The position numbers and the translations under genes are program-made. This document shows, piece after piece, positions 7,601-34,461 of a DNA stretch of 38,421 nucleotides. This DNA comes from Terriglobia bacterium (GTDB lineage: Bacteria > Acidobacteriota > Vicinamibacteria > Vicinamibacterales > CAVVIG01). How positions within the stretch are numbered: the first letter of the stretch is position 1; every line of letters begins with the position of its first letter. Under the pieces are notes generated by a model. The model made no database searches. It saw only the letters and a program-made list of their open reading frames with translations, and was not told the origin of the DNA. The stretch is from positions 1 to 38,421 of the forward strand of contig JAIQFX010000052.1 of the NCBI GenBank assembly GCA_020073005.1. Direction: 5' to 3'.

Positions 7601-8358
7601 GACGCATCGACGAGGTGCGCGTCTACAATCGCGCGCTCTTGGCGGCGGAAATCCAGACGGACATGGTGACGCCGATCAGCACGATTGGCGTGCCGCCGGC
7701 GCCGTCGGCGATTCCACACCTGGGCGCGCACGCGCTCTTCGCGCAGAACGATACGTTCGGGACGACGCCCACCCTCACGGCGCCGGTCACGACTCAGCCG
7801 CAGGGGAGCACGCTGCTGGCGCTCGGCATGGGCTGGCTGCGCAATCTCTCCGCGCCCGTGGACAGCTTCGGGAATTCATGGACGCCGATCAGCGGCCCGA
7901 ACATCTACTTCAGCCCCGACTTCTACACGGCGCTCTGGGCGGCGCCGTCGGCGACTGGGGGAAGCGGTCACACGCTGAGATTCGACAAGAACGAGTACCC
8001 CCAGGGCGAGATCACGCAGGCGTTGATCGAGGTGACCAATGGCGGTGTCGTCGACATGGTCTACAACCTGGCGCCGTCATCGAACCAGACGCCGGGGAGC
8101 ATCACCGTCGACGGCCCGGCGACGTTGATCGCGATCTGGGGCGGTGATTCCGCCGCGCTGGATCACACCGCGGTGCCCGACAACGGCTTCGCGGTGATCG
8201 ACTCCTACCTGGACTTCGGCAACAACTTCGAGACCGGGGTCCAGGTCGCGATCGCCGCGAAAGAAGTCACGACGCCGGGCACTTACACGGTGAGGTGGAC
8301 CTCGACGCCGGTGCAGAACGCCGCGTGCTACCTGATCGCGGTGCGGCACCAGCAGTAG
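1633..8358 (+). CDS. Giant exported modular protein: heparinase II/III-like lyase, beta-helix and two LamG-like domains
   Basis: A protein of 2241 residues; the start has GGAGGG 3 bases upstream. Visible parts in order: signal peptide about 1-36; CBM-like beta-sandwich about 45-195; Gly/Ser linker about 197-238; alpha/alpha-toroid plus sheet region about 240-795 resembling heparinase II/III or alginate lyases, with NYHY (413-416) and an HxH motif (H618, H620) as in those lyases; second Gly/Ser linker about 797-838; Ig-like segment about 845-975; right-handed parallel beta-helix about 979-1433 with repeated N-x-F/I and GN turns; third linker about 1436-1490; LamG-like jellyroll about 1495-1700; Ig-like domain about 1712-1801; second LamG-like domain about 1810-2013; C-terminal beta domain about 2030-2241. 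Probably secreted and acting on an acidic polysaccharide. Lyase activity is inferred from fold-level motifs only, and the substrate is unknown. No sorting tag (PEP-CTERM or T9SS type) is evident. Confidence 0.85.
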   Translation: MRGQSLVRRVRQWVWLALAVVGISVIAVSSDTTSAQSGGAPPDPANLVQDPQFDLGASGFAGQDQSSLVVQTSDAPLEGAHSLHVGIDGYGNNVWWGYGFAGGRASGFRVSAHLRSDVESSSTLQVCAMVYYADGSDLNCTDVDGAIGDKGTVSAALVLDSTRLMQSANIRLIQQGSDPLTFTLDNAAAFLDVVAPPPTGSGDSGGGSGGGDTGGSGDTGGTGGSGGTGGSGGTGSSGDACAPTSSTSVYHGFTYQLPTVRPFISLNDYTQGGANTTAATRLIGGADALLAGDPPYLFGAVQMVLAYRTTGQLQYLTSAISQVDQFVTEAEAAIAAGDAPEIAGDSYLDVGAFLEELSLTYDTGFDQLTPDQRQRWAAFAEQSLFNLWHPNDATWGGVSHPWTGWAICDPGDNYHYSFMRATMLWALASQNTAWFDFLQTQKFGPLLDYFAALPGGGTREGTGYGTALNNLFGDYLYWKASTGEDLSSITPHTRETIDYWVHATVPTLDRFAPIADLSRESIPNIFDYQENLVHQAVVLSAGTPQARRGTWWLQNNSVNGVAYLFNIQGDLLPYPDAPEAPTDLMYHSAGAGALFARTSWDTDAAWIAFVAGKYDQSHAHQEQGNFTFFKNDWLSVTSNIWSHSGIHQEVDVNNLIRFERPDGSIIPQNFGESTMTPSNANGVTTVTADLAGAYSDNNTEVLGWTRALALNGDTLRVTDMCSVAPGVRPIFQLQVPAQPVVQADGSIQAGNLRIVLMQPATFDVVAMDPTEFDRGYRLDFTSAAGCGFDMELQATATSGSGSGSGTGSDPGTGSGSGSGSGSGTGSGSGSGSGSGSGGQTTTPTPADGSADPVEAVWSEVSTATRIKSPGPHMHFTAGAPFRILADAVDLEAWRCPPGHPPYVCPGTEERFYVDGQLIGVVPPNPDDFNLWEVRLPNGLPAGDHVLTVTYVPYDPSTGGGGTPINGLVPITIHVDPAPAHGTTVSLAQDLVLSGSADLDWNDTTVIGNGFTVTAAPGYSGSVTIQNSFVTGLGSFDAPGIDITTSGAVSIQGSVFEATGAMRFGAQGSVPVTVTNNELRANNLVTYVADNPAVPVMLELDGNTSGAKIVQGNRLAAGILRISGDNWQIGGLAAGEGNILIGPRVVLDLSNSSNDRIQGNYLHHDYHGGFSQGYNLQLEGSSGNELAEHNVIRGGSWPVQTFGGEFRYNLLIDSGHNFWRSALDNTVIHHNVFANASGTNTGYEGVFKFYGGESGLNIYNNTFDVGGSIGDFNSPAFNIGADSLFQSIRNNLFTSFLDVTSNWGSAFVAAPEGAVSSPRVVSADYNGFFNPLAPDSVRYLPGIVTNTPGLHDVQANPQLSGQSEIPYRVSEGCIWTLNCTTGQVLAHYREVYRPAAGSPLIDAGDPADGAGTAVGAIGPDDTNATDLFGRLVESPAGGGGTGSGGDTGTGGDTGSGGGTGSGGDTGSGGDTGSGGNTGGGIGSGGGTGTTPPPANALVAAYGFEEGSGTIASDASGNGLAGTVSDATWVEGKFGKALDFAGTFGSWVTIPDADALDLTTGMTVEAWIKPTSPLPQWPSVINKERSGELTYALYANSADGHPNVDYTSDGAEVNLEGVSGVPLNQWTHLAGTFDGSALKLFVNGQFVGSVATTAPIDVTDGVLRIGGDSVWDGEFFTGLIDEVRVYNRALSQSEIEIDMTTPVVAGTPAPDLAPPAVAIDSPADGSTVSGTVTIAATASDDVGVAGTRIFVDDVQIGGERTAPPYSVAWDTIAAGDGSHVITAIARDAAGHTTTSAAVTVTVSNTVPPPAGLVAAYGFEEGAGAETADASGHGLAGTLSNATWTTGQFGGALQFTGASNSLVSVASTPLLQLSTAYTLSAWVNPQGAQSLEPAIIAKEISGDLPYVLYAQGDGVGPNAFTFINGAYTQSAAPSQIPAGTWTHVAATYDGASLSVYVNGVLASTTAVSGTLSPGAGALRIGNDTVFSNEGFVGRIDEVRVYNRALLAAEIQTDMVTPISTIGVPPAPSAIPHLGAHALFAQNDTFGTTPTLTAPVTTQPQGSTLLALGMGWLRNLSAPVDSFGNSWTPISGPNIYFSPDFYTALWAAPSATGGSGHTLRFDKNEYPQGEITQALIEVTNGGVVDMVYNLAPSSNQTPGSITVDGPATLIAIWGGDSAALDHTAVPDNGFAVIDSYLDFGNNFETGVQVAIAAKEVTTPGTYTVRWTSTPVQNAACYLIAVRHQQ
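2221..2345 (+). repeat. Gly/Ser/Thr-rich linker repeat 1
   Basis: Tandem degenerate GGCGGYWCSGGCRGC-type units encode GG(S/T)GG linkers between the CBM-like and lyase domains of the giant protein. It is low-complexity coding DNA and prone to slippage or assembly error. Confidence 0.8.
4021..4146 (+). repeat. (Gly-Ser)n linker repeat 2
   Basis: Near-pure alternation of Gly and Ser/Thr codons (GSGSGSGTGSGSGSG type) built from GGCTCGGG/TTCGGG hexamer variants. It separates the lyase module from the Ig-like and beta-helix modules. Confidence 0.8.
5938..6095 (+). repeat. Gly-rich linker repeat 3 with 15-18 base units
   Basis: Tandem units such as GGCGGTGATACCGGT and GGCGGCGACACCGGC encode (GGDTGS)n between the beta-helix and the first LamG-like domain. 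It differs from linker 2 by Asp-Thr insertions, which may bind calcium. Confidence 0.8.
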
Positions 8359-11911: not shown

Positions 11912-12133
11912 GTGGAAGAGCAGAAGTTGCCGGTGCGGCAGGGCGCGCACAACTGCAAGTGGGCCGCGCCGACGTTGTTCGAACCGGCGCCGGACTGGCT
12001 CGACGCCGAAGGCAAGCCCTGGACGTGTCACCGCGACGCCGTCCCGAAGCACCTCGAGACCACGGAAGTCTGCGAGGGCTGCCCGCGCTGGGAGCCGCGC
12101 GACGAGACAGGACAGGTGAAGCCGAAGGCTTAG
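11912..12133 (+). CDS. Small Cys-containing hypothetical protein
   Basis: 73 residues. GTG 11912 has GGGAGG 5 bases upstream, which decides the start; the open frame upstream to 11699 overlaps the acetyltransferase gene and looks non-coding. Four Cys (HNCKW, WTCHRD, EVCEGCPRW) sit among Trp, Pro and charged residues, suggesting a small metal-binding or disulfide-containing cytoplasmic protein. There is no signal peptide. I do not recognise the family. Its TAG stop overlaps the TAA stop of the convergent DUF411 gene by bases 12131-12132, and the gene ends overlap across 12130-12133. Confidence 0.7.
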   Translation: MEEQKLPVRQGAHNCKWAAPTLFEPAPDWLDAEGKPWTCHRDAVPKHLETTEVCEGCPRWEPRDETGQVKPKA

Positions 12134-12624
12134 TGCTTCGAGTAGACGGTCTGCTTGCCGTCCTTCGCGAACGCCGTCACGGTGTACGGCTGCTTCGCCC
12201 CGCCTTCCATGCCGGGAGAGCCCGACGGCATGCCCGCGACTGAAATGCCCACGATGGCGGGCTTCTCTTTCAGCATGCGCTGAATGTCCTCCGCGGGCAC
12301 GTGTCCTTCAACGACATAGCCGCCGACTTTGGCGGTGTGACACGACTCGAGATCGGCGGGAACGCCCGATTCAGTCTTGATGGCGGCGAGCCGCGTGTCG
12401 CTGACGTTGTTGACTTCCACCTGGAAGCCACGCGCCTGGAGATACTGAATCCAGGCGCCACAGCACCCTCATGTCGGCGACTTGTAGACCGCGACGGAGT
12501 TGCCGGCCGGCACGGCTGACGCCCCCCGAGTCGCGGGCTTCTGCTGCGCGACGACGACCAAGCCGAGGCAGGTGGCCACAAGGGCCGACCCGGCGAGAAC
12601 AGCGAACCGATTGCGCGTCATCAT
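12130..12624 (-). CDS. DUF411 metal-binding protein, probable selenoprotein (in-frame TGA read as Sec)
   Basis: 164 residues if the TGA at 12471-12469 is decoded. ATG 12624 (or 12621) has GTGAGG 6 bases upstream; the stop is TAA at 12132-12130. Residues 1-27 form a signal peptide (MMTRNRFAVLAGSALVA...). Then VAVYKSPT(TGA)GCCGAW matches the DUF411 (PF04214) signature, in which SPTCGCC carries a CxCC motif; the TGA replaces the first Cys (residue 52), with C54 and C55 kept. Downstream, SCHTAKVGGYVVEGHVP (C95, H96, H108) and GMPSGSPGMEGG are full-length family features with no decay. The family is associated with copper or other metal handling in the periplasm. A perfect hairpin follows the TGA. 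Alternatives are a TGC-to-TGA mutation or base error. A conventional caller would report only residues 69-164 from GTG 12420. Confidence 0.8.
12432..12458 (-). promoter_or_regulatory. SECIS-like hairpin downstream of in-frame TGA
   Basis: Reading the minus strand, 10 bases after the TGA: GCGCCTGGA, loop TTCAGTATC, TCCAGGCGC, a perfect 9-bp stem. The loop begins 20 bases after the TGA, within the roughly 16-37 base distance used to define bacterial SECIS elements. An alternative fold has a 7-bp stem, a UC bulge, a GAU/AUC stem and a UCAGU loop. The loop G is central, not among the first two bases, so the fit to the consensus is partial. The hairpin lies in coding sequence for AWIQYLQAR. Confidence 0.6.
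12469..12471 (-). other. In-frame TGA recoding site (candidate selenocysteine codon)
   Basis: TGA at codon 52 of the DUF411 gene, in place of the first Cys of the CxCC motif. It is flanked by intact, conserved codons (TCG CCG ACA before, GGG TGC TGT after). It is the only stop between the signal peptide and the TAA at 12130. Confidence 0.7.
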
Positions 12625-24066: not shown

Positions 24067-24093
24067 GCGGGAGAGTTATACCCGAAAGTCGCG

Positions 24094-25514
<1,421 letters not shown>

Positions 25515-25518
<4 letters not shown>

Positions 25519-26912
25519 GCGGTCGCCTCCAGCGCGGGCGCCCGCGCGCCGCTGACGACGCACGACACGATCTCGTCGTGCGAGGGCAGGATGCCGCCAA
25601 GACGATTGACTCTCGTAATCGGGGGCGTCGCGAGATTCGCGTGCGAGATCGCGAGGCGCATCTCGTCCTCGAGCTGTGCGGCGCTCGCCTCGACGACCAC
25701 GACCTCTCGCGCGCGTCCCAGGACCGGCGCGAGCGCGCGAATCGGAAACGGCCAGAGCGTGAGCGGGCGGAACAGTCCCGCCTTGACGCCGCGCGCGCGC
25801 AGCGTCCGCACCGCGCCCTTCGCCATGCGCGACGGCGTGTTGCACGCGACGATCAGGATCTCGGCATCGCCGCACTCGAAGAGATCGGCGCGCGGCTCCT
25901 CGTCCACCATGCGCGCGTACTTCGCGAGGAGCCGCAGGTTCTCGCCCTCGAGCTCGGTCTCGCTCAGGTAGATCGAGGTGATCAGATTCCGCCGGTGCGC
26001 CTCGTCGCCCGCGACGGCCCACGACGGCACGCCGGGCTGCACCATCGTGCGCGGCAGCGTCACGCGGCCGGTCATCTGCGCGAGATACGCGTCGGCGAGC
26101 ACGATGACCGGGTTGCGGTACTTGAAGGCCAGGTCGAACGCGAGCATCGTGAGCTCGAGCATCTCCTGCGGCGTCGCCGGCGCGAGGACGATCGCGTGCG
26201 AGTCGCCGTGGCCGAGGCCGCGGCACGCGAGCTTGATATCGGACTGACTGGGCGCGATGTTGCCCAAGCCCGGACCGCCGCGCATCACGTTGACCACCAC
26301 GCCCGGCACTCTCGCGCCCATCATGTACGACAGGCCCTCGAGCATCAGGCTGAAGCCCGGCGACGACGTGAACGTCGTCGCGCGGACGCCAGCGGAGCCG
26401 GCGCCGTACAACATGTTGATCGCCGCGACTTCGCTCACGGCCTGCACGAACTGGCCGTCGAGCCGCGGCAGCAGCCGCGCCATCAACTCCGCGCCTTCGG
26501 TGGACGGCGTGATCGGATAGCCGAAGAAATGGCGGCAGCCCGCGAGGATCGCGCCGATCGCCGACGCGTACATGCCCTTGATGACGAGCGGTTCGGCGGG
26601 CGGCAGCTCGACGATGGCGTCGGGGATCGGTTCCGCGGCCGGGATCGCGGTGGCGCGCGGCGCGGGCCGCGATGCGCGCGCCGCGTCGGCGAATTCCGGA
26701 CGAAGCGCGTACGGCTCTGGACACGCGTCGAAACACAGACCGCACGCCGTGCAGTGTTCGAGATGGATCCGGACGGGCACGAGACCGGTGACGGGATCGA
26801 TGTCGCTGCCGGGCTCGATGCAATGATGCTCGCAGGCATCGATGCAGCGGCCGCAGCCCTTGCAGGAGTCCGGGACGAGGACGGGCTTTGGCCGCTCGAC
26901 GGTCGCCGCCAT
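25515..26912 (-). CDS. 2-Oxoacid:ferredoxin oxidoreductase, fused delta (ferredoxin)-alpha subunits
   Basis: 465 residues from ATG 26912 (MAATVERPKPVLV). ATG 27020 would add a 36-residue extension with no conserved look and would almost touch the divergent gene. Residues 17-64 hold two CxxCxxCxxxC motifs (C17, C20, C23, C27; C54, C57, C60, C64) for two [4Fe-4S] clusters: the delta subunit. From about residue 110 comes the alpha subunit (IKGMYASAIGAILAGC, FFGYPITPSTEGAELMA, GGPGLGNIAPSQSD). It is closest in character to the KorA/VorA group acting on 2-oxoglutarate or branched or aromatic 2-oxoacids. First gene of the four-gene operon. Confidence 0.9.
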
Positions 26913-26940
26913 GCGGACATTCGATTGCAAAGCGGTCGCC

Positions 26941-26962
26941 AGCCGCAAAAGGGGCGGCTTTT
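26941..26962 (+). terminator. Hairpin with short T-run in the divergent intergenic region
   Basis: AGCCGC, loop AAAAGGG, GCGGCT, continuing into TTTT (26959-26962), read on +. It lies 65 bases before the VOC-protein ATG and 29 bases upstream of the divergent oxidoreductase start. A terminator here would sit inside the VOC gene's leader (attenuator-like), or stop antisense transcription. The 6-bp stem and 4-T tail are weak. Confidence 0.3.
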
Positions 26963-27026
26963 CTGGAGGAATCGCGCGTTCGGCGATGTCTTGCCGGAAA
27001 CCCGTCGCTGCTCCTATCATCCAGCC

Positions 27027-28064
27027 ATGAAGAACATCTCAACGGCCGCCCTCATTGCCGTCCTGACCGCGTTCGTCGGCGTGTCGATCGCGACTCGCGT
27101 CCCCGCGCACGCGCAGGCGCCGGCGAAGACACCTGGGAACATTGAACCGCTCCACTTCCATCACATCCATCTGAACTCCGTCGATCCGAAAGCCGCGGCC
27201 GCGTACTACCCGAAGCCGTTCGCGCTGACGGCGGCGGCGACGACGTTCAACGGCTTCGAGGCGGTGAAGACCGGCAACGTCTACATCCTCTTCACCAAAG
27301 TGGCGACGACGCCGCAGAACGAATTGACCGGGCCGCAGACGTCGATCTGGCATTTCGGATGGAACACGCCGAACTCGCGGCAGTACGACGAGAAGTTCCG
27401 CGCGATGGGCCTGACGATCGCGCAGATGTGGGACGCGGCCGACGGCAAGCTCGTCGACATGTCGAGCGACACGCTGCCGGGGCTGCCGACGCAGGAACAG
27501 ATTCTGGAAATGCGCGCGAAGGGCACGCAGCCGACGCGCGAAGGCGGCTTCGGGTATCTGCGCGGTCCAGACGGCGCGATGATCGAGAACGCGCAGGCCG
27601 GAACGACCGAGCGCTTCAATCACGTGCACATGTATCACGAGCATCCGCTCTGCGCGATGCAGTGGTACGAGGAGCATCTCGGCGCGCGCCGGCCGCAGGG
27701 CCGCGGCGGCCGCGGCGCGGCGCCCGCGCCGGATCCCACCGCCGATTGTCACACCAAGCTGTACGCGCCGCCGACGTGGCCGTCGTTCGCCAAGACCGGC
27801 TTCGTCCGCGATCCCGCGGGCGGCGTGAACTTCGACGACATCTCGATCTCGATTCGTCCGTGGCCCGGCGGCGGCCTCGTCAGCACGCGCGGGAAGATCT
27901 ACGATCACTGGGCGCTCAGCACGGCGGATCTGACGGCGACCGTCACGCGGCTGAAGGGCGAAGGCGTGAAGTTCCTCGAAGAGATTCACCCGTGGGGCAA
28001 CTCGCGCGCCGCGATGATCGAAGGCCCCGATCGCATCGCCATCGAGCTGGTCGAAGTGAAATAG
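27027..28064 (+). CDS. Exported VOC (glyoxalase/dioxygenase-fold) protein
   Basis: 345 residues from ATG 27027. Signal peptide MKNISTAALIAVLTAFVGVSIATRVPAHAQA. Two vicinal-oxygen-chelate halves are suggested: LHFHHIHLNSVDPKAAAAYY opens the first, and RFNHVHMYHEHPLCAMQWYEEHLG the second, with a C-terminal GPDRIAIELVEVK. The His residues at strand starts and Glu in AIELVE are the usual metal-ligand positions. Exported VOC proteins of this length are common in Acidobacteriota, but no reaction is known to me. A linker (RRPQGRGGRGAAPAPDP) interrupts the second half. Confidence 0.85.
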   Translation: MKNISTAALIAVLTAFVGVSIATRVPAHAQAPAKTPGNIEPLHFHHIHLNSVDPKAAAAYYPKPFALTAAATTFNGFEAVKTGNVYILFTKVATTPQNELTGPQTSIWHFGWNTPNSRQYDEKFRAMGLTIAQMWDAADGKLVDMSSDTLPGLPTQEQILEMRAKGTQPTREGGFGYLRGPDGAMIENAQAGTTERFNHVHMYHEHPLCAMQWYEEHLGARRPQGRGGRGAAPAPDPTADCHTKLYAPPTWPSFAKTGFVRDPAGGVNFDDISISIRPWPGGGLVSTRGKIYDHWALSTADLTATVTRLKGEGVKFLEEIHPWGNSRAAMIEGPDRIAIELVEVK

Positions 28065-30686: not shown

Positions 30687-32540
30687 TCAGCGCTTTTCCG
30701 GATCGGCGAAGAGGCTGCCCTGGAGCGCGCGCTCGAACACGATGCCGTTGCGCTCCAGGAATCCGCCGACGGCGAGCTGGTGCGCGACGAGCGCCTTGGC
30801 GTAGTCGACGCGCGCCTGCGTCTCGGCCGCCTGCGCCGACGTCAGATCGCGCTGGGCGAGCGTGACGTCGTACGGCGTCGCGATGCCGGCCTGCAGTTTC
30901 TCCTGCGCGGCCTCGAACACCCTCCGGCTGGTGACCAGCGCGCGCTGCGCCGCTTCGACGCGCGAGCGGCCCTGCGTCAGGCTCACGGTCGCGCTCTGGA
31001 CCTGCCCCTGAATCTGGACCCGCGTCCGCTGGAGCGCGGCTTCCGCTTCCTGCCGCTCGAGCCGCGCGCGGACGTCGTCGGCCTGCGCCGCGCGATTGAA
31101 CACGGGCAGCGACCAGGTGACGCCGAGCGAGAACTCGGGGTACTCCCATCGCAGCAGCTGCCGCAACGCGGGATCCGTGTTCGGCGCGAGCCCGAACATG
31201 CTGAACTGGCCGTACACGCTGAAGACCGGGAGCAGATTCCTGCGCGTGTACTCCTCGGCGACGCGCTGATTTTTCAGCGACAGCTCGGCCTGCTTGATCG
31301 ACGACCGCCCCGTCATCGCGGACGCGATGCTCGGCGCGAGCGGCGGGATCTCGATGTCGCCGGGGCCGGGCAGCTCGCCCGTCGGCTCGATGACGGCGGC
31401 GTCGAGCGCGGGATCGCTCGACTTGCTGATCAGGTTCTTCAGCAGCACGCTCTGCTGCTGGAGCCGCGTGCGCGCGGTCACGAGCCGCACCTGCGCCGAC
31501 GCGAGCTGCGATTCCGCGGCCAGCAGATCCAGCGGCGTCGCCACGTCGAGGGCGACGCGCTGCCGGAACTCGCCCGCCTGCCGCGTGGCGGTCGCCACCG
31601 CTTCCTCGGCTGCGCGCACGTTCTCGCGCAGCGCGAGCAGGTCCCAGTACGCGTTGGCCGCGTTCGCCAGCGTGTTGTTGAGCGTCGTGTGGATCGCTTC
31701 GCGCACGATCTGGCCCTCGTTCTCGGCGAGCGTCATGAAGCGCCGCGTCAGCGCGGAGCCGAATCCGTTGAGCAGCGGCTGGTAGACCTGGACCGCGAAG
31801 AACGAGCTCAGCGCGGGATTGAAGAGCAGCCCCGACTGCGTCGAGACCTGCCGCTGCAGGTTGAAGCTGACGCTGTAGCTCGTGCCGAAGGAGAGCTGCT
31901 GCTGGTACCGCGTCTGCAGCACGGTCGACGGAATCGTGACGGACGCCGCGCCCGCGACCTTCGTCGTGTTCAGCGGGTTCACGACGTGGTCGTAGCTCAG
32001 ATTGATCGAGACCGTCGGATCGAAGTTGCCGCGCGGGCCGAACGACACGAGCTTGCCCTGCGTCGAGATCGCCGCGCCGCCCGTGCCGCCCGGCGACAGG
32101 CCGGCCGTCTGGCTGACGCCGGCGCCGATCGCGCCGGCGAAGACCGCGGCGGGGAGCGGCGACGCGGCGGTCCCGCGCGCCGCCTGGCCGGATCGCGCGC
32201 GCAACAGGTCCACTTGCGCGATCGCGTAGTCGTAGCGCGCGGCGGCGAGATCGAGGTTGTTGTCGACGACCAGCTGCAGGAAGTCCCTGAGCGAGAGCGA
32301 CAGCGTGCCGCCGGCGATCAGGCCCGCGAGCCGCGAACCGTTGCCGAAGTCGGCCAGGGGCAGCGGCGCGGGCCGGTACGGTTTCCAGATCAGCGGAAAC
32401 GGCGACGGGCCGTTCGTCAGGGTTCGGGTGTCGAGCCGCGCGGGCTCTTCGGCGCCGAGCGCGGCCGGCGCCAGCGATCCCGCGACGACCGCGAGCGTGA
32501 TGACGAGCGAGCGAGCAGGGAAGCGGCGCGGACGAATCAT
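30687..32540 (-). CDS. TolC-family outer-membrane efflux protein (second of a tandem pair)
   Basis: 617 residues from ATG 32540 (MIRPRRFPARSLVITL), which has AGAGGA about 9 bases upstream; ATG 32549 would abut that site. Signal peptide to about GALGAEE-type cleavage. Two OEP repeats of long amphipathic helices are present: SLRDFLQLVVDNNLDLAAARYDYAIAQ, AYWDLLALRENVRAAEEAV, LDLLAAESQLASAQVRLV, SVTQGRSRVEAAQRALVTS-like, and KLQAGIATPYDVTLAQRDL. The protein should form a trimeric channel. It is about 150 residues longer than E. coli TolC owing to an insertion around residues 95-200. No membrane-fusion or inner-membrane pump gene is in the window. Confidence 0.9.
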   Translation of the reverse strand: MIRPRRFPARSLVITLAVVAGSLAPAALGAEEPARLDTRTLTNGPSPFPLIWKPYRPAPLPLADFGNGSRLAGLIAGGTLSLSLRDFLQLVVDNNLDLAAARYDYAIAQVDLLRARSGQAARGTAASPLPAAVFAGAIGAGVSQTAGLSPGGTGGAAISTQGKLVSFGPRGNFDPTVSINLSYDHVVNPLNTTKVAGAASVTIPSTVLQTRYQQQLSFGTSYSVSFNLQRQVSTQSGLLFNPALSSFFAVQVYQPLLNGFGSALTRRFMTLAENEGQIVREAIHTTLNNTLANAANAYWDLLALRENVRAAEEAVATATRQAGEFRQRVALDVATPLDLLAAESQLASAQVRLVTARTRLQQQSVLLKNLISKSSDPALDAAVIEPTGELPGPGDIEIPPLAPSIASAMTGRSSIKQAELSLKNQRVAEEYTRRNLLPVFSVYGQFSMFGLAPNTDPALRQLLRWEYPEFSLGVTWSLPVFNRAAQADDVRARLERQEAEAALQRTRVQIQGQVQSATVSLTQGRSRVEAAQRALVTSRRVFEAAQEKLQAGIATPYDVTLAQRDLTSAQAAETQARVDYAKALVAHQLAVGGFLERNGIVFERALQGSLFADPEKR

Positions 32541-32553
32541 GGCTCGCATTCCT

Positions 32554-34461
32554 CTACTGCCGGGAGCCGGCGCCCGAGTGGAGCATCGCCGGCACGGGCG
32601 GCGCGTGCGTCTCGCCGGCCAGCGCGTCGCGCAGCTCGATGCCGTTCCGCTCGAGCATCGCCCCGGTCGCGCGATCGAAGTCCACCAGCGCCTTGGCGTA
32701 CGCCGCCGACGCGGCGACGTCGGCCTGGCGCGCCGACAGCTCGTCGCGCTCGCGCAGGATGACGTCGTAGGTCGTCGACACGCCGGCCTGCAGCTTGGCG
32801 CGCTCCGCTTCGACCGTGCGCAGCGCGAGGCGCAGCGCCTCGTGCGCGGCTTCGACCTGCGCGCGGCCCTGCGTCAGGCTGATCAGCGCCTGCCGGACCT
32901 CGAGGCCGATCTGCTGGCGCGAGCGCTGCATCTGCACGGTGAGCTGCTGTTCTTCGAGCCGCGCCCGCAGGTTGTCGGCCTGCGCGGCGCGGTTGCGCAG
33001 CGGAATGTTGGCGCTCACGCCCGCGCCGTACTCGGGATAGGCGGCCGAGAAGTCCTGGGCGAACGACGCGCCGAGCCCGTTGGCCACCACGGGCGTCTGG
33101 CCCGTGAGGCCCGCGCCCGCGAAGAGACCGAACGCGCTGACGGACGGCAACATGCCGTTGCGCGTGAAGCGCGTGGTCAGCGACTGGTTCTGCAGATCCT
33201 GCCGGGCGACCTGCAGCTCGGGGCGGTGGGCCAGCGCGTCGGCGAGCGCCGACTGCAGATCGGGCAGCGCGCGCGCGCCCGGATCGGGCAGGTCGTCGGT
33301 CGTCTCGATGTCCGCGGCGTCGAGCCCCGGGTCGCTCTCCTTGCTGATCAGGTTCTTGAGCTGCGCCTGCTGGAGCTGGAAATTGGTCTGCGCGACGATG
33401 AGATCGCGCTCGGCCGCGGCGGCGGCGGATTGCGACGAGGTCACGTCGATGCCGGCGGCGGTGCCGAGCTCGAGGCGCACCAGCGTGTCTTTTTCGAGCT
33501 CGCGCGCGGCGTCGACCGCGCGCTGCGCCGTGGCGATCGCCTGGCGCGACGCCGTGAGATCCCAGTACGCGTTCTCGATCTGGACGACCGTCGACGTCAC
33601 CTGCGCGCGAAAGAGGTGCTCCGACGTCTGCAGGTTGTTGGTGGCGACGATGACGAACCGCTTGTTCGGCAGCAGCCCGAAGCCGTTCAGCAGCGGCTGG
33701 TTGAAGCCCATCGCCACGCGGCTCACGTCGGCCGGGTTGAACAGCAGCGACTGCTGCGTCGAGTTCTGCGCGATGCCGTTGGTCGCCATCGTGAAGCTGG
33801 ATCCGTCGGCGAACAGCTGGCTGTAGTTCAGCGTGGCGGCGGCGGACGAGGTCGTCACCTGCGGCACGCCGGCGACGACGAGGCTGTTCAGCGGCGCGAC
33901 CGTCCGATCGAAGCTGGCGTTGATGCTCACGGCCGGATCGAACGTGCCGGACTGGCCGACGGCGATGGCGCCGCCGCCGCCGCTGATCCCGCCCGCGCTG
34001 CCGACGCCGCCGGTGCCGCCGGTCTGGTTGACGCCGACGCCCAGCGCGCCCGCGCTCAGGCCGCTCGGCACGAGCGCGCCCGAGATGCCGCGCGCCGCCT
34101 GCCCCGAACTGGTGCGCAGCATGTCCGCCTCGGCAATCGGCCGGAGGTAGCGCTGCACGGCGATGTCGAGGTTGTTCTCGATCGCGAGCGCCAACGCGTT
34201 CGACAGCGACAGGCGCAATCGCCCGTCGCGGATGAGATCGTGCAGGCGCGACGAGTTGGCCAGCACGAGCGGCGTGATCGGGCCGGGCCGGTACGGATTC
34301 AGCACGCCCGGAAACGCGCTGACGCCATGTGAGAAGTCCTGCAGCGCCGGCCCGCCGGTCGCCGGCGCGTCTCCGGACGAGTTCTGCGATTGCGCGAGCG
34401 CCGTCAGACCAGCAACGAACACCATGACGGCCGTGACCGTGCACGTACGAATGCCACCCAT
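32554..34461 (-). CDS. TolC-family outer-membrane efflux protein (first of a tandem pair)
   Basis: 635 residues; ATG 34461 has GGGAG 7 bases upstream. Signal peptide MGGIRTCTVTAVMVFVAGLTALAQ. It shares with the neighbour the N-terminal phrases (LNPYRPGPITPL, LSLSNALALAIENNLDIAVQRY, SSGQAARG), an inserted Gly/Ala-rich stretch here richer in Gly (about residues 125-170), and paired OEP repeats (AYWDLTASRQAIATAQRAV, KLQAGVSTTYDVILRERDEL). The two are paralogues from duplication, separated by 13 bases. Use with an RND or ABC pump encoded elsewhere is inferred. Confidence 0.9.
   Translation of the reverse strand: MGGIRTCTVTAVMVFVAGLTALAQSQNSSGDAPATGGPALQDFSHGVSAFPGVLNPYRPGPITPLVLANSSRLHDLIRDGRLRLSLSNALALAIENNLDIAVQRYLRPIAEADMLRTSSGQAARGISGALVPSGLSAGALGVGVNQTGGTGGVGSAGGISGGGGAIAVGQSGTFDPAVSINASFDRTVAPLNSLVVAGVPQVTTSSAAATLNYSQLFADGSSFTMATNGIAQNSTQQSLLFNPADVSRVAMGFNQPLLNGFGLLPNKRFVIVATNNLQTSEHLFRAQVTSTVVQIENAYWDLTASRQAIATAQRAVDAARELEKDTLVRLELGTAAGIDVTSSQSAAAAAERDLIVAQTNFQLQQAQLKNLISKESDPGLDAADIETTDDLPDPGARALPDLQSALADALAHRPELQVARQDLQNQSLTTRFTRNGMLPSVSAFGLFAGAGLTGQTPVVANGLGASFAQDFSAAYPEYGAGVSANIPLRNRAAQADNLRARLEEQQLTVQMQRSRQQIGLEVRQALISLTQGRAQVEAAHEALRLALRTVEAERAKLQAGVSTTYDVILRERDELSARQADVAASAAYAKALVDFDRATGAMLERNGIELRDALAGETHAPPVPAMLHSGAGSRQ

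Follow-up and report, generated by a model that had tools for sequence, protein, structure and literature searches.

The window analysed here, a stretch of 38,421 nucleotides (contig JAIQFX010000052.1 of a Terriglobia bacterium), carries on its reverse strand a frame at 12624..12130, closed by a TAA stop (12130-12132), that gives a single uninterrupted protein of 164 residues when its one TGA is translated as selenocysteine (Sec, U). All features of the gene described below lie on the same strand. The TGA (12469..12471) is codon 52 and, in the context KSPT-U-GCC, takes the place of the first cysteine of a CxCC motif. Cysteine is therefore not found at all three positions of the motif: the first is UGA and the other two, Cys54 and Cys55 (12460..12465), are kept. 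The Pfam family DUF411 (PF04214) matched residues 92 to 139 with E 2.7e-26 (91.5 bits, cut-off 27), while none of the NCBIfam models matched the 164-residue protein at its own cut-off. The original prediction of a full DUF411 frame with one TGA at the first CxCC cysteine was thus confirmed by translation and by the Pfam match.

Further along the frame are Cys95, in an SCHT motif (12340..12342), and a GMPxGSPGM block running from Met132 to Met139 (12208..12231), whose methionines are candidate metal ligands on the basis of motif conservation. A Shine-Dalgarno-like GTGAGG precedes the frame, and residues 1 to 27 (12544..12624) resemble a signal peptide, both as judged by eye; the AlphaFold model has low confidence in this N-terminal stretch, which nevertheless suggests that the protein may be exported to the periplasm. 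Mechanical ORF calling in this frame returned only an ORF of 96 residues with a GTG start at 12420. This bears out the expectation that the front part of the protein would be lost: ordinary gene calling would truncate the gene at codon 52, leaving the last 96 residues.

The genome was searched for the machinery of Sec insertion. SelA (541 bits, cut-off 267.9), SelB (347.6 bits, cut-off 242.25), SelD (349.4 bits, cut-off 125) and a tRNA-Sec with anticodon TCA (60.4 bits, cut-off 47) were all found, so that the objection that the genome might lack this machinery falls away. The SelD has an in-frame TGA of its own, in the context ...VACAG-U-ASK, which fits the UxxK motif given for Sec-containing SelD in Table 1 of PMC13188914.

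Relatives were collected by searching 198 related genomes in all six frames, the 164-residue protein serving as query; 93 of them gave matches. Of the 97 matches listed, 95 were taken as loci, a weak pair at E 3.7e-4 and E 9.5e-4 being excluded; one locus (L113) misses the codon, leaving 94. Codon 52 is TGA in 42 of these, TGC in 49 and TGT in three, and TAA, TAG or any other codon was seen in none. Among the matches listed from this search TGA is also the sole stop in the frame, and additional disabling mutations were not met with. The TGA thus recurs at the same codon in relatives, a point on which the original prediction had asked for a check, and the close relatives are not all Cys forms. 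At L093, from genome G058, a proline follows the TGA and turns the motif into UPCC, which none of the other 42 Sec loci shows in place of UGCC. Genome G079 has three Cys-type DUF411 copies (L050, L065 and L077) and no SelB match at E 1e-60.

A degenerate pattern, which recovers 39 of the 42 Sec loci and nothing else among the 113 loci collected up to that point, was then used to scan one genome per species in 84,980 species. This gave 82 matches, 37 of them identical over 72 bases to loci of the 198-genome search, so that the two sets overlap. DUF411 could be read across the TGA in 81 of the 82, the other (L176) being a chance match. Four of the matches (L128, L136, L151 and L188) run off the end of their stored sequence, and in another (L164, region 7636-7662 of an Anaerolineales assembly), also a Sec form, the frame is lost 21 codons past the TGA through a frameshift or an assembly error. 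Going by record titles, the matches listed cover eight named groups: Acidobacteria, Gemmatimonadota, Rokubacteria, Chloroflexi, Tectomicrobia and Delta-, Beta- and Gammaproteobacteria. These are the submitters' titles, some of which name no group and not all of which are correct (L147 is titled Acidimicrobiia). The Gammaproteobacterial titles are those of Pseudomonadales and of Parendozoicomonas callyspongiae 2012CJ34-2 (L141), the sole named strain found. Six Sec loci, mostly titled Chloroflexi (L126, L127, L149, L161, L164 and L187), have N-termini that look lipoprotein-like by eye (such as VAAC, LSAC, LAAC and LAGC), suggesting a possible membrane anchor for the protein in these cases.

Comparison of 21 close pairs of Sec forms, made without gaps, showed dN mostly well under dS both ahead of the TGA and past it; the part ahead of it is short and gives noisier values, and there two pairs (L018/L019 and L025/L027) have dN not below dS. 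With these two exceptions the claim of conserved codons to either side of the TGA stands, and coding is conserved through the UGA. All 84 Sec forms have the xCC motif, the CH of SCHT and the GMP..SPGM block; among the 52 Cys forms, xCC and CH occur in every one and the full GMP..SPGM block in 50. Cys54 and Cys55 are also invariant in a 20-sequence alignment.

A tree of 136 sequences, built from few columns and with many open forks, requires at least 13 changes between Sec and Cys, five of which are forced by well-supported branches. Sec has thus been gained or lost more than once. The clade of the window's gene contains 16 Sec and four Cys rows, the latter (L031, L033, L035 and L036) lying within an otherwise Sec clade. 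Such repeated exchange within one order amounts to a natural experiment on the gain and loss of SECIS elements.

The original prediction also included a perfect 9-bp hairpin starting ten bases past the TGA. This SECIS-like hairpin (12432..12458) has arms at 12458..12450 and 12440..12432 and the loop TTCAGTATC at 12449..12441. The bacterial SECIS model, as described in section 5 of PMC13188914, has a G in the first two positions of the apical loop, with the caveat that some bSECIS elements do not fit. The window's hairpin fails this published constraint because the first two positions of its loop contain no G. When the loop-G rule was left out, two of 40 synonymous shuffles of the window's own sequence gave a hairpin as strong (fraction 0.05).

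The hairpin was considered across the family in 84 Sec and 52 Cys stretches, all of them distinct (85 Sec until L164, which loses the frame, was dropped; L188 was too short). Hairpins were sought with the loop starting at index 16-33 from the U of UGA, a loop of 3-12 bases and a stem of at least 4 bp, with no minimum energy; these limits only approximate the published bacterial SECIS model. A hairpin with loop G below -6 kcal/mol was found in 59/84 Sec forms vs 4/52 Cys forms. The mean energy in the Sec forms was -7.0 kcal/mol vs -3.1 kcal/mol in synonymous shuffles, with 70/84 beating their shuffle mean (p 3.5e-13), whereas the Cys forms gave -2.33 vs -2.30 kcal/mol, with 20/52 stronger (p 0.38); these p-values are too good, given the kinship of the sequences and the pooling of codons over species in the shuffles. 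Without the loop-G rule the corresponding values were -8.6 vs -4.1 kcal/mol for the Sec forms (79/84) and -3.08 vs -3.08 kcal/mol for the Cys forms. Third-position GC at loop codon 8 was 0.33 in Sec vs 0.83 in Cys forms (p 2e-8, again too good for related sequences). Under the loop-G rule 13/84 Sec forms lack a hairpin, that of the window among them. When the 48 bases starting at the TGA were folded as a whole, Sec and Cys forms did not differ in energy (z -0.78 vs -0.77). By the comparison with synonymous shuffles, which looks at a single hairpin positioned as in bacterial SECIS models, the hairpin of the Sec forms is evidently selected beyond the demands of the protein sequence.

A consensus fold over all 84 Sec forms was empty, and one over the 16 Sec forms of the window's clade was not. 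The clade has a stem of 8 bp, and 14 of its 16 Sec members pair all eight positions; L022 pairs seven and L025 three, a different hairpin being present in L025 instead. One C-G to G-C exchange was seen in the stem, at pair 14-38. The clade's Cys members L031, L033, L035 and L036 form 3, 6, 4 and 4 of the eight pairs, and other Cys forms average 3.9; L033 keeps part of the clade stem, and in L036 another hairpin, of -9.8 kcal/mol, is present. The predicted 9-bp hairpin is thus real and mostly shared within its clade, though without the loop G that the published model has.

The distribution of SelB was compared with that of the two forms. A DUF411 codon could be scored in 91 genomes; at any degree of fragmentation, SelB was found in 33/42 Sec vs 34/49 Cys genomes (p 0.35), and in those with no more than 200 contigs in 24/24 Sec vs 20/27 Cys genomes (p 0.011, a value that relatedness again makes too good). 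Every one of the nine Sec genomes in which SelB was missed has at least 410 contigs. A tRNA-Sec above 60 bits is present in four of these nine and a match of 47-52 bits, of a kind that also occurs where there is no SelB, in two; the other three lack a match. SelB was also over its cut-off in 19 of 21 Sec-form genomes from other groups, which were chosen by title (that of L171 names no group), and in two of 14 control genomes.

These results bear on three ways in which the TGA might be something other than a Sec codon. It could be a true stop, in a decaying pseudogene or ahead of a short protein made from a downstream start, and the 96-residue ORF from GTG 12420 is indeed all that mechanical calling offers in this frame. 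A true stop is highly improbable, though: the TGA is the only stop and lies at this codon in eight named groups, dN is below dS before and after it in most of the 21 pairs (the exceptions, L018/L019 and L025/L027, being before it), and the hairpin is selected beyond the protein sequence. That the UGA is instead decoded as cysteine or tryptophan, by a suppressor tRNA or by near-cognate readthrough, is slightly less probable again: the sequence alone cannot name the residue and the homologues carry cysteine, but the genome has a tRNA-Sec (TCA), SelA, SelB and a SelD that itself contains a TGA, and the excess of hairpins is specific to the TGA forms. Least probable is an error of sequencing or assembly that turned TGC into TGA. 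The window does come from one assembly, but the TGA recurs, together with the hairpin, in dozens of separate assemblies, including that of a named strain and chromosome-titled records, and an error is very unlikely to have arisen so often.

The identity of the protein was examined through its relatives of known structure. The sole relative in the PDB by sequence at E 0.001 was 6wis/6wje (E 1.3e-27), titled copper resistance protein CopG. The AlphaFold model has a mean pLDDT of 85, with core blocks reaching 97, and superimposes on CopG 6wis/6wje with TM 0.87-0.90 normalised to the length of CopG and 0.67-0.70 normalised to that of the query, at 40-41% identity. The next structural matches were weak (E 0.03 and up) and mostly thioredoxin- or glutaredoxin-like, NrdH/thioredoxin-like folds among them. 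U52 aligns with the first CxCC residue of CopG. The reading as a Sec form of a DUF411 metal protein is supported, and the match to 6wis/6wje and the fold allow "metal protein" to be narrowed down to the CopG family. With a probability of about 0.93, the window's gene encodes a Sec-containing protein of this family.

According to passages of PMC7558416 and PMC8456105, CopG-like proteins are periplasmic, hold a tetranuclear copper cluster through the CxCC motif and two methionines, aid copper resistance without oxygen and have been proposed to oxidise Cu(I) and to pass the copper on; CutG of Rhodobacter capsulatus is dispensable there for the maturation of CutO. The DUF411 protein PA4714 of P. 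aeruginosa is described in part of PMC6444534 as responding to copper stress. The window's protein resembles CopG from P. aeruginosa (6wis/6wje) and CutG in fold and in the position of the CxCC motif, those two proteins being periplasmic by report. It differs from them in having UGA/Sec where they have cysteine at the first CxCC position. Another difference lies in the kind of evidence: the Cu4 cluster of CopG is reported from a structure in passages of the same two papers (PMC7558416, PMC8456105), whereas copper binding by the window's protein is proposed by analogy.

A mechanism can be suggested on this basis. SelB and tRNA-Sec would read the UGA at codon 52 as Sec, aided by the hairpin just downstream. 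The product would be an exported CopG (DUF411) protein with a thioredoxin-like fold and with Sec for the first cysteine of CxCC. Met132 and Met139 probably correspond to the two copper-binding methionines of CopG, and Cu(I) would be bound through U52, Cys54, Cys55 and the methionines, with redox cycling of copper or of a selenol/thiol pair taking place in the periplasm. Sec could act as a copper ligand, as the redox partner of Cys55, or as both. Its lower pKa (5.2 vs 8.3) and its resistance to irreversible oxidation, general advantages given in section 8 of PMC13188914, would apply here too.

Since U52 is the first CxCC residue and a copper cluster has been reported for CopG, a Sec-ligated copper site is a natural proposal, and within the reading as a Sec-containing CopG protein copper binding is somewhat favoured as the main role. 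The more specific idea, that Sec52, Cys54, Cys55 and the methionines hold a multinuclear Cu-Se/S cluster in the periplasm and that the protein is a copper redox enzyme, is put forward tentatively, at slightly short of even odds. An example of a selenolate-ligated multinuclear copper cluster was not found in the open-licence literature searched.

The main rival to a copper role arises because U52 and Cys55 make a UxxC pair: the same selenoprotein could be a redox catalyst of the thiol type, to which copper is incidental. The sequence U52-G-C-C55 fits UxxC, the weak structural matches that follow CopG (E 0.03 and up) are NrdH/thioredoxin-like, and most characterised selenoproteins are thioredoxin-like with a redox motif, according to PMC13188914 (section 7). 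Nevertheless Cys54, Cys55, Cys95, Met132 and Met139 are kept in the Sec forms as in the Cys forms, which exceeds what a simple UxxC would need, and the multicopper oxidase found next to a few loci of one genus is in keeping with copper. A purely thiol-type catalyst, whose share is contained within the probability given above for a Sec-containing CopG protein, takes most of what the copper role leaves and is judged less likely than not.

The neighbours in question were examined at 43 chosen Sec loci (one, L122, titled Acidobacteria and several with titles that name no group). Of the 149 nearest frames, 145 were usable, from 42 of the 43 loci; they were obtained with a simple ORF script and some of the ORFs are wrong. 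Among the 25 commonest of 166 Pfam families the only one with a possible metal role was E1-E2 ATPase, in 2/145 frames. Five genomes, all of a single genus, have a multicopper oxidase no more than about 2.6 kb from the gene, at four Sec loci (L018=L178, L019=L120, L020=L194 and L028=L133) and one Cys locus (L035). Transporters of RND type, recognised by their likeness to a neighbour of L148 that Pfam names as such, were seen near the Sec loci L148, L093 and L117 and near six Cys loci, and a P-type ATPase near L127. No metal or copper function was found among the window's own scanned neighbours. With copper-type neighbours so patchy, the gene surroundings lend weak support to the copper role.

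A Sec form of this family was sought in the literature. The May 2026 paper PMC13188914 lists 119 bacterial selenoprotein families and subfamilies in its Table 1, and that table has no entry for DUF411 or CopG. No Sec form under the names DUF411, CopG or PF04214 was found in the open-licence full-text literature, going mostly by the titles of the papers listed, and DUF411 does not occur in passages of PMC2398784, on the GOS selenoproteome, or of PMC12013277, on deep-Sep. This agrees with the original prediction, which treats the family as one normally known with cysteine. The gene shares with known bacterial selenoproteins a UGA followed by a hairpin, the set of SelA, SelB, SelD and tRNA-Sec, and Sec at a conserved cysteine of a thioredoxin-like fold. 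Sec-containing metal-handling proteins are known, some of them copper-linked by name, but they are different proteins and none is listed as DUF411. Sec.2 of Brachyspira (UxC) is similar in being a small thioredoxin-like protein with a motif labelled UxC, but it belongs to PF13192, 'Redox-active disulfide protein 2', according to part of PMC5330540, and not to DUF411.

The comparisons thus show a conserved family, absent from the literature searched, whose members are presumably selenoproteins, and a Sec version of the periplasmic copper-resistance protein CopG seems to be made by many bacteria from the environment. The bacterial selenoproteome would gain a family spanning eight named bacterial groups, and selenium would be tied to periplasmic copper handling. 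As the protein is small and has a Cys relative of solved structure, a U-to-C swap would be a direct probe of Sec as a candidate copper ligand.

Two other features of the window were recorded. A predicted tRNA-Arg at 24089-24163 on the forward strand lies antisense over the 3' end of a frame for a TPP/POR oxidoreductase of 982 residues (24094-27042, reverse strand). Two adjacent frames for outer membrane efflux proteins, of 620 and 635 residues, are found at 30687-34461 on the reverse strand.
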